A DNA stretch of 64,000 bases from Candidatus Marsarchaeota archaeon (GTDB lineage Archaea; Micrarchaeota; Micrarchaeia; Micrarchaeales; Micrarchaeaceae), in contig JAMCZQ010000002.1 in assembly GCA_023485295.1 (NCBI GenBank), forward strand, positions 1 to 64,000, written 5' to 3'. A model generated the notes under the pieces. The model saw only the letters and a program-made list of their open reading frames with translations. It ran no database searches and was not told the DNA's origin. Positions 6,443 to 9,524 of this stretch are shown piece by piece. Made by a program: the position numbers and the translations under genes. The stretch's first letter is position 1. Every line of letters begins with the position of its first letter.

Positions 6443-6787
6443 GTGGTGAAAATGATTGGCAAGAAGGCAGAGCAGAACGGCTTTATAACGCTTGACGAGG
6501 TCTACGAAATACTCAAGGAGCGCAAGAAGAGCCCTAAGCCGCTGACATACGAGCAGCAGCTGGCATACGAGTATGTTGAAAAATTCAAGCTGCCAAAAAA
6601 GCATACTGAAAAGGCAAAGTCCGATCTGCAGAAGCTTGGCATTCTGAGCGATTATGCAGTGGCAAAACTTATCGAGGTAATGCCAAAGAACGCCGGCATG
6701 GTCAGGCAAATACTTGCAAAGGAAAAGGGCAGCATAGACGATTCGGCGATAAGCAAGATACTTGAGATAACTACGAGCAAGGGATAA
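6443..6787 (+). CDS. rpoF: DNA-directed RNA polymerase subunit F (Rpb4-like)
   Basis: A 114-residue helical protein resembling archaeal RpoF, which pairs with RpoE to form the polymerase stalk. The N-terminal part has the ITLDEVYEIL and LTYEQQLAYEYVEKF helices; the C-terminal HRDC-like part is IEVMPKNAGMVRQILAKEK. Possible starts are GTG 6443, GTG 6446 and ATG 6452 (giving MIGKKAEQNG). The gene is followed by DUF655 and a facing rpl21e; in most archaea these form the co-oriented set rpl21e-rpoF-DUF655, which supports the call. Confidence 0.85.
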   Translation: MVKMIGKKAEQNGFITLDEVYEILKERKKSPKPLTYEQQLAYEYVEKFKLPKKHTEKAKSDLQKLGILSDYAVAKLIEVMPKNAGMVRQILAKEKGSIDDSAISKILEITTSKG

Positions 6788-6838: not shown

Positions 6839-7411
6839 ATGGAAGGGGAGAAAAGGGAGGAATATGCGGTTGTGCTGGACTTCATGTCTAGCGGAAAGTC
6901 TTTTTCTTCAAGGTCAGAGCCTGTCGCACAGCTGATAGGCGAGGAATGGTTTACACTTTTTGAAGCAACGCCAAAGCCTTCGATGCAGCTCAACATAGGG
7001 GAGCGCGTTTACATAGGCAAGGGCGAGCGCGACAAGATAGCAATGATACGCTTCAGGATAAGCTATTCAGAGCTTACGCAGACAGCGCAAAGCAACCTCA
7101 AGAACGTCATCATGCAGATAATAAAAAGCAACCCGGAGCGCTTTGTCGCGATCTTCAACAACGCAGGCCCGTTAAACATACGGGAGCATTCGCTTGAGCT
7201 GCTACCTGGCATAGGCAAAAAGCACCTGCAGGCAATACTTAATGCAAGGAAAGAGAAAAAATTCGAGAGTTTCGAGGACATAACATCAAGGATACCGCTG
7301 CTTCAGGACCCTGCCGGCATGATAGCGCAGCGCATAATACTAGAGCTCGAAGGAAACGAAAGATTCTACATGATGACAAAGCCGTACTTCAAGAAGGAGC
7401 AGCGCCAATAA
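6839..7411 (+). CDS. DUF655 family protein
   Basis: 190 residues. The N-terminal half (EEYAVVLDFMSSGKS, then GERVYIGKGERDKI) is an OB-like beta region. The C-terminal half contains a helix-hairpin-helix element, LELLPGIGKKHLQAILNAR, near residues 120-140. This is the DUF655 layout, an archaeal family found next to rpoF and predicted to bind nucleic acid; its biochemical role is not established. The ATG at 6839 is 51 bp after the rpoF stop, probably in one transcript. The gene converges on rpl21e. Confidence 0.82.
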   Translation: MEGEKREEYAVVLDFMSSGKSFSSRSEPVAQLIGEEWFTLFEATPKPSMQLNIGERVYIGKGERDKIAMIRFRISYSELTQTAQSNLKNVIMQIIKSNPERFVAIFNNAGPLNIREHSLELLPGIGKKHLQAILNARKEKKFESFEDITSRIPLLQDPAGMIAQRIILELEGNERFYMMTKPYFKKEQRQ

Positions 7412-7436: not shown

Positions 7437-7721
7437 CTAGGCCTTGTCCAGGTGTATTGCTGGCACCACTATGGCGCGCTTTGCATTCATTATTTTTACC
7501 TCAACCACATAGGCGTCGCCGCGTTTCTCTGTTATAACGCCTATCCTGCCCTTGTAGCGCGGATGAGGTATGTTCTTGAAATTGCCCTTCGGCACTATTG
7601 CGACCTTGTCCCCGACATTGAAATTCTTTATAAAAGCCCTGACCGGCTGCTTTGAAGGCACGTGATGCCTTGAAATATTCCTTGTCTTGCCTGAGAAAAG
7701 GCCTGCGGATCTTTTTGTCAT
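7437..7721 (-). CDS. rpl21e: 50S ribosomal protein L21e
   Basis: 94 residues if started at the ATG at 7721, giving MTKRSAGLFSGKTRNIS, which matches the usual basic N-terminus of the family; ATG codons 9-15 bases upstream add a non-conserved MLMMY. The body has the SH3-like pattern GDKVAIVPKGNFKNIPHPRY, then KGRIGVITEKRGDAYVVEV. It is a structural protein of the large subunit. A box matching TATATAAAG lies near 7780 on this strand. In most archaea it is co-oriented upstream of rpoF; here it is inverted and converges on DUF655. Confidence 0.9.
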   Translation of the reverse strand: MTKRSAGLFSGKTRNISRHHVPSKQPVRAFIKNFNVGDKVAIVPKGNFKNIPHPRYKGRIGVITEKRGDAYVVEVKIMNAKRAIVVPAIHLDKA

Positions 7722-7847
7722 ATACATCATCAACAATACAGTTAAGCTTTAAGCGCTTATACTATTTAGACCCAATCTTTATATGCATTTTGATGCTGCC
7801 GCAAAATAGCCGAGCAGGCATCGATAAAGCAGGCCAAGCGCAATATA

Positions 7848-7861
7848 CATAAATATTTATG
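7848..7861 (+). promoter_or_regulatory. Palindromic TATA box upstream of the single-repeat TBP gene
   Basis: CATAAATATTTATG is a perfect 14-bp palindrome centred about 41 bases before the ATG at 7896, predicting a start site near 7882. A second AT box (TTTTTAAA, 7886-7893) directly abuts the ATG and is probably leader. Confidence 0.55.
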
Positions 7862-7895
7862 CCTTAACGCTTAAAAATCTTCTAGGTGTTTTTAA

Positions 7896-8228
7896 ATGGC
7901 AAAATCACAGCATCATGATTCGGCACAGGGCAAGCACATTGTGCTGCACCCGACATACGAAGTAGTGAATATGGTTGCGAGTGCAGACCTTAACATAGAA
8001 TTGGACTTGTACGGCCTTGCAAGGCTTTCTTACGATGTGGACTACGAGCCTGAGCAGTTTCCCGGAGCTATACTGAAGATACATGATCCGAAGTCTGCGC
8101 TGCTGCTCTTCAAGAACGGCAAGATCATATGCACTGGTGCAATGACTGAAGCAGCTGTCAGGCGCTCCATAGGACAAGCCATAGAGCTGATTAAAAAGTA
8201 CAAGAGGCAGCAGGGCAAGGCCAAGTAA
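7896..8228 (+). CDS. TATA-box-binding protein homologue with a single TBP repeat
   Basis: A 110-residue protein that matches one half of TBP. Usual archaeal TBPs are about 180-200 residues with two tandem repeats; here there is one (residues ~20-101). The DNA-contact positions known from TBP structures are present: central Asn (N25 in EVVNMVASADLN), the two intercalating-type Phe (F55 in EPEQFPG and F72 in LLLFKNGK) and Thr (T80 in CTGA). Repeat order S1 to H2 is complete and ends with a KRQQGK tail. The gene is not interrupted: the reading frame closes with TAA, and the next 52 bases encode nothing TBP-like. A homodimer would rebuild the saddle. It could be the organism's basal TBP, a TFB-interacting modulator or an accessory factor. 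Confidence 0.85.
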   Translation: MAKSQHHDSAQGKHIVLHPTYEVVNMVASADLNIELDLYGLARLSYDVDYEPEQFPGAILKIHDPKSALLLFKNGKIICTGAMTEAAVRRSIGQAIELIKKYKRQQGKAK

Positions 8229-9224: not shown

Positions 9225-9524
9225 ATGAGATATGAAATGAACGACGAAGACGGTCGAGGATCTGGAAGCGGCTGCGGGTGCGGCTGCAGAAACGGCGAAG
9301 GAGGCATGCGCGGAAGGATGCACGGCTCTATGGGTATGCATATGCGCGGCATGGGCAATTGGATGATGGACGGAATTGATGATATGGGCCCGCTGCACAA
9401 GGAAAGGCTCATAGAAAAGCTTAAGCTCTACAAGGAGGATCTGGAGGCGCAGGCAAAGTTCATAGCAAGGCGCATCGACGAGATACAGAAGGGCTCAAGC
9501 GAATCCGAAGAAAAGGAGGAATGA
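9225..9524 (+). CDS. Gly/Met/Cys-rich small protein with C-terminal coiled coil
   Basis: 99 residues. Residues 11-22 contain GSGSGCGCGCRN; residues 27-55 are Gly/Met/His-rich (GGMRGRMHGSMGMHMRGMGN), which would suit soft-metal or copper binding; residues 58-88 form a charged helix (KERLIEKLKLYKEDLEAQAK) typical of a coiled coil. The layout recalls DUF5320-type small proteins, often found beside redox or metal genes. It shares an operon with padR, the two being separated by one base, with GGAGGA at 9515-9520 serving padR. Function unknown; metal sensing or sequestration is an inference. Confidence 0.65.
   Translation: MRYEMNDEDGRGSGSGCGCGCRNGEGGMRGRMHGSMGMHMRGMGNWMMDGIDDMGPLHKERLIEKLKLYKEDLEAQAKFIARRIDEIQKGSSESEEKEE

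Follow-up and report, generated by a model that had tools for sequence, protein, structure and literature searches.

A gene in the window, the 64,000-nucleotide stretch of archaeal DNA analyzed here, encodes a TATA-binding protein (TBP) with a single lobe. Taken as a whole, the data are best explained if this protein, TBP-A, is one subunit of a two-subunit general TBP, in lineages where the one-lobe form is old and fusions came later; we regard this explanation as very probable. TBP is common to archaea and eukaryotes, and its two-fold symmetry has been explained by a one-lobe ancestor that was duplicated and fused. Such an ancestor was beyond study, and the lineages described here offer living one-lobe TBPs. 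The same genomic slot holds one-lobe TBPs and apparently re-fused two-lobe TBPs, and a duplicated but unfused pair is also on offer. The origin of the TBP saddle thereby becomes directly testable, as does the problem of directional transcription from a symmetric TBP. One member, Ca. Micrarchaeum harzensis A_DKE, is available in co-culture with a complete genome. The features of the window that bear on the gene are the following.

6443..6787, + strand: RNA polymerase subunit RpoF (Rpb4), conserved neighbor (Pfam 3.9e-6; synteny)
6839..7411, + strand: DUF655 protein, conserved neighbor (Pfam 2.5e-60; synteny)
7437..7736, - strand: ribosomal protein L21e, divergent neighbor (Pfam 4.1e-14; synteny with one-repeat and fused TBP genes)
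7841..7878, + strand: candidate BRE/TATA upstream of TBP-A (best matches of the A_DKE upstream motif)
7896..8228, + strand: TBP-A, one-repeat TATA-binding protein, 110 aa (Pfam, AlphaFold2, Foldseek)
7956..8201, + strand: single TBP lobe of TBP-A (six-frame Pfam match, column-by-column comparison)

The TBP-A gene runs from an ATG to a TAA on the forward strand, with a Shine-Dalgarno-like stretch (AGGTG) immediately 5' of the start codon. A Pfam search gave one PF00352 match, at residues 21-102, which spans profile positions 2-85 of 85 with E = 6.7e-24 and 84 bits against a cut-off of 22.9. The original prediction of a single complete TBP repeat with the DNA-contact residues N25, F55, F72 and T80 in place was thus borne out: among 47 one-repeat homologues, N25, F55 and F72 never vary, and the conservation of T80 is 90% or more. 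The lobe also carries E51 and E53, the Glu pair that contacts TFB (C.L3.2 and C.L3.4); this role is described for the C lobe of ordinary TBPs in PMC7221094. Two tandem lobes per chain are found neither in TBP-A nor in its paralogue TBP-B, which have one match each, and TBP-A falls far under the cut-offs of the NCBIfam TBP models (best 76.7 bits vs 278), all of which describe proteins of about 180-194 aa. No remnant of a second lobe was found near the gene.

Structure prediction, which had been proposed for the monomer, returned a full TBP lobe. The AlphaFold2 model, built with the 47 homologues, is a confident single lobe (pLDDT 90.2), and all 44 of its Foldseek matches in the PDB at E<=1e-3 are TBPs. 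The best is M. jannaschii TBP (2z8u; rmsd 0.9-1.1), and most alignments cover about 80 residues at roughly 1 A rmsd. Strand S1 of the monomer model spans only 26-31. A fused relative has two long S1 strands (15-26 and 109-119), and the predicted short strand fits an exposed edge to which a partner could bind. TBP-A therefore resembles canonical TBP (PF00352; M. jannaschii 2z8u, Sulfolobus 1mp9, Pyrococcus 1pcz) in its lobe fold, its DNA-contact Asn/Phe/Phe/Thr and its TFB-contact Glu pair. It differs in having one lobe per polypeptide where canonical TBP has two, and in the DPANN-type motifs FPGAI and FKNGK, which stand against FPGL and SSGK in canonical TBP.

Previous reports offer limited information on such proteins. 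According to a 2018 review, archaeal TBP consists of two repeats, and two surveys of DPANN genomes merely list TBP as present. In the available part of Ravarani et al. (2020; PMC7221094), single-lobe archaeal TBPs are mentioned in one sentence, citing Brindefalk et al. (2013), and these are probably the same kind of protein as TBP-A. On the strength of that part of the paper, the bare existence of single-lobe archaeal TBPs was already known, and the earlier statement that known archaeal TBPs have two repeats was nearly right, failing only for these forms. Unlike the present data, the mention in the part available comes without taxa, DPANN, pairing or evolution. The distribution, pairing, synteny and re-fusion of one-lobe TBPs were not found in the literature examined, and a literature search for split, half-size, single-domain or heterodimeric TBPs returned nothing relevant. 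The N-domain of RNase HIII is, like TBP-A, a single TBP-like domain. However, the single domains of this type are fused to enzymes and very divergent, as described in PMC7221094, whereas TBP-A stands free and has the residues of an archaeal TBP. Haloarchaea resemble the source genome in having more than one TBP gene per genome, but their intact TBPs are two-lobe paralogues, in contrast to the half-size subunits A and B.

The source genome belongs to the genus Ca. Micrarchaeum and comprises 885 kb at 95.7% completeness. A six-frame search of the whole genome found exactly two TBP matches, A and B, and a two-repeat TBP was not found by this Pfam search. TBP-B is likewise an intact one-repeat gene, located on another contig (C6:45182-45424) and unlinked to A. 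The closed chromosome of Ca. Micrarchaeum sp. A_DKE, from the same genus (NZ_CP060530.1, 989,838 bp), also has A and B as its only TBPs, and its A is 89% identical to TBP-A. Complete genomes for the A_DKE co-culture were reported with the name Ca. M. harzensis (PMC8975820), and NCBI taxonomy places the genus in the phylum Microcaldota (Micrarchaeota), family Micrarchaeaceae. Single-repeat orthologues, for which a search had been suggested, are present in the same genus, the same family and the sister family. Most genomes compared are MAGs. Exactly two TBP matches were found in 40 of the 46 genomes of Micrarchaeaceae, the family of the source genome. The 28 genomes of the sister family have one match (16), two (11) or none (1), and those with a single one-lobe gene include a one-contig genome of 771,545 bp. 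Elsewhere in the class, seven families (f8, f9, f10, f13, f14, f15 and f17) have one one-repeat gene and another (f11) has one to three copies, while fused two-repeat TBPs of about 185-230 aa occur in f3-f7, f12, f16, f18 and f20.

Two genomes deserve separate mention. In G073, an 8.4-kb contig (C43, locus L014) carries an ordinary two-repeat TBP, in addition to the A and B genes of this genome; apart from it, no two-repeat TBP was found in the searched genomes of the family. As its sequence is non-DPANN and lies outside the conserved slot, it was set aside and is probably contamination from a host, or an import. In G066, two nearly identical one-repeat TBP genes lie ~1.3 kb apart (C62, L072) and a third copy lies elsewhere, which is a case of recent copy-number growth without fusion.

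TBP-A lies next to the divergent L21e gene, beyond which are RpoF and DUF655 and often one more conserved gene. This slot is also filled by the one-repeat genes of ten other families and the fused genes of nine, and the same L21e-RpoF-DUF655 arrangement accompanies fused TBPs in a second phylum and one-repeat genes in a third, both phyla being groups of the genome search tool. Because one-repeat and fused genes share the slot, the architecture must have changed in place. TBP-B occupies a different conserved slot, flanked by two other conserved genes. In the lobe tree, the B genes of the order's two families group as a single clade, which suggests a duplication predating the family split and later losses of B in the sister family. 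On the other side of TBP-A, a small Gly/Met/Cys-rich ORF without a Pfam match (SGCGCGCRNGEGGMRGRMHGSMGMHMRGMG, positions 9225-9524) lies directly upstream of a PadR-type regulator and is perhaps metal-binding.

A TFB with both cyclin folds was found in 49 of 50 genomes tested, and the source genome is among those with TFB. The TFB open frames of its order (e.g. G000:C5:3171-3695) span ~340-400 aa against ~300-310 in most of the class, and the profile match of their first cyclin fold begins only at position 11. An upstream motif consisting of an A-rich BRE and then an 8-bp TATA box is common to a one-gene genome (G026; gcAAtcTTTaTAtAct), A_DKE with A and B (gaAAAgcTTTATATAT) and a genome with a fused TBP (G012; AaAAAgaTTTATAAAt). 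The log-likelihood gains were 255, 171 and 244, respectively, against block-shuffled maxima of 70, 67 and 53; the motif search was seeded with TATA and left unseeded for the BRE, and gene starts were called by a simple codon model. BRE/TATA promoters are thus common to canonical TBP systems and one-lobe TBP genomes. A more palindromic TATA core was not found in the one-gene genome; the core is near-palindromic in all three and does not tell them apart. Upstream of TBP-A itself, two weak candidates were located at 7841-7856 and 7863-7878, with A_DKE motif scores of 4.7 and 4.3.

Since the TATA box is of normal length and the only lobes are A and B, or A alone in one-gene relatives, two lobes are needed. 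The original prediction that a lone lobe must pair to form the saddle is in this way supported by the lack of another TBP and by the 8-bp boxes, which together make a strong case for dimerization, and the relatives with A only suggest that A alone can homodimerize. A and B would then be one-lobe subunits that jointly serve this archaeon as its general TBP. They would form the usual saddle from two lobes held together non-covalently (A:A and/or A:B), and the dimer would occupy an ordinary 8-bp TATA box. TFB would bind one stirrup and read the BRE, thereby setting direction. A:B is somewhat favored as the main form in the family of the source genome, given that B is kept almost everywhere in it; the sufficiency of A alone in relatives counts against this preference.

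Three other readings of the gene have been considered. A homodimer of A may serve as the general TBP, with B as a specialized or regulatory paralogue forming its own or mixed dimers at some promoters. This division of labor is possible but rather less likely than joint action. A occupies the ancestral slot and is nearer to the sole TBP of the sister genomes (branch 0.16 vs 0.53 for B), and B is absent from many of those genomes. However, B is kept in nearly all genomes of the source family, and both A and B retain the DNA-contact N/F/F and the TFB-contact E51/E53. B also often has Gln at position 24, as in classical C lobes, which hints at asymmetric pairing. The idea that the one-lobe protein is a modulator of a canonical TBP rather than the general TBP, raised earlier as a dominant modulator of promoter choice, has only the small size of the protein in its favor. 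It is very improbable and was rejected, as Pfam searches found no canonical TBP in the source genome or the closed A_DKE genome, leaving nothing to modulate, barring a TBP too divergent for Pfam. The third reading is that the gene reflects an error in sequencing or assembly, or is what a pseudogene has left of a normal TBP. Truncated TBPs do exist: Halobacterium NRC-1 pNRC200 (795-1097, L319) has an annotated 100-aa TBP beside the ISH8A transposase that looks truncated and serves as a contrast case. The chance that this reading holds for TBP-A is negligible. The gene is conserved in the closed genome, as the 89% identical copy, and in dozens of independent assemblies, with clean ends and no second-lobe remnant, which refutes this reading and agrees with the earlier view that the gene is not broken.

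The history of the two architectures was examined with a species tree of 57 genomes, based on concatenated RNA polymerase subunits (2263 columns), and with a tree of individual lobes, which has 86 columns only and few firm forks. In the species tree, the 12 fused Micrarchaeota genomes form one clade (92/97). This clade joins the one-repeat families f11, f14 and f21 at 100/100 and lies inside a series of one-repeat lineages that is paraphyletic. Rooted on the second phylum, the tree requires 2 changes in lobe number under free parsimony and 6 under a loss-only history. G163, a one-repeat genome that the tool assigns to the second phylum, falls on the Micrarchaeota side once the tree is rooted. 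In the lobe tree, the N and C lobes of the fused Micrarchaeota TBPs group with neighboring one-repeat families (89/92). Within a gene, the N and C lobes of Micrarchaeota are on average 65.7% identical, compared with 53% for the second phylum and 42% for ordinary archaea. Two-repeat TBPs therefore appear to have been re-made by internal duplication in one Micrarchaeota clade. We infer that these DPANN lineages have long had a one-repeat TBP and that fusion was re-made more than once: duplication without fusion would have given A and B, and in-place duplication with fusion would have given two-lobe TBPs again in other Micrarchaeota families. Two-repeat orthologues at the position of TBP-A, which had been named as evidence against the one-repeat reading, are indeed present, but only in these more distant families, where the trees favor re-fusion.

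A fused ancestor that lost one lobe independently in many lineages, with the fused Micrarchaeota TBPs as the retained original, is a rather unlikely alternative. Within DPANN, a constraint that sets every N lobe apart from every C lobe is not rejected by the AU test (p = 0.22), which makes repeated lobe loss from one fused DPANN ancestor possible and leaves re-fusion unproven. Fused TBPs of the outgroup phylum share the synteny, and a genuine one-lobe gene in G128, a member of a fused family, shows that reversal from the fused form does happen. This history nevertheless requires the 6 independent losses, and it is at odds both with the clustering of fused Micrarchaeota lobes among adjacent one-lobe families and with their higher N/C identity than in the outgroup phylum. 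High lobe-lobe likeness could also come from gene conversion instead of new duplication. Conversely, the one-lobe TBP of these DPANN may be a surviving ancestral state, and the two-lobe form may have arisen independently several times, although this is distinctly improbable. The independent origins, an equally improbable set, would be the main archaeal line, the second DPANN phylum, one Micrarchaeota clade and at least one third-phylum genome. The argument for multiple origins is that the AU test strongly rejects one N/C duplication shared by the second phylum and other archaea (p = 0.0004); one such event behind all TBPs is rejected only weakly (p = 0.024, or p = 0.03 when the one-lobe genes are left out). 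Lobe homogenization or long-branch effects could mimic such a pattern. The one-repeat form may never have passed through a fused stage in these lineages. The proposed likeness to the ancestor of TBP thus holds for the architecture, which may be either a surviving ancestral state or a secondary reduction. The one-lobe genes could not be matched to either lobe of ordinary TBPs, N or C, as all DPANN lobes are separate from both lobes of other archaea (99/92).

Further variants were found in the other two phyla. In two third-phylum genomes (G233 and G234), the lobes of the fused TBPs are 80-83% identical in protein and 79-85% in DNA and have no nearer match among other lobes, a sequence likeness that points to fresh local duplications. 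Many second-phylum genomes (e.g. G192:C7:25815-26012) encode a very divergent protein of 95-110 aa with a TBP-like domain scoring about 20-30 bits. G233 also contains a 726-aa frame (C8:9538-10695, L417/L418) in which four divergent TBP lobes precede a hydrophobic stretch resembling a membrane helix and then a tail; judging from its sequence, the product is apparently a membrane-anchored four-lobe TBP-like protein.
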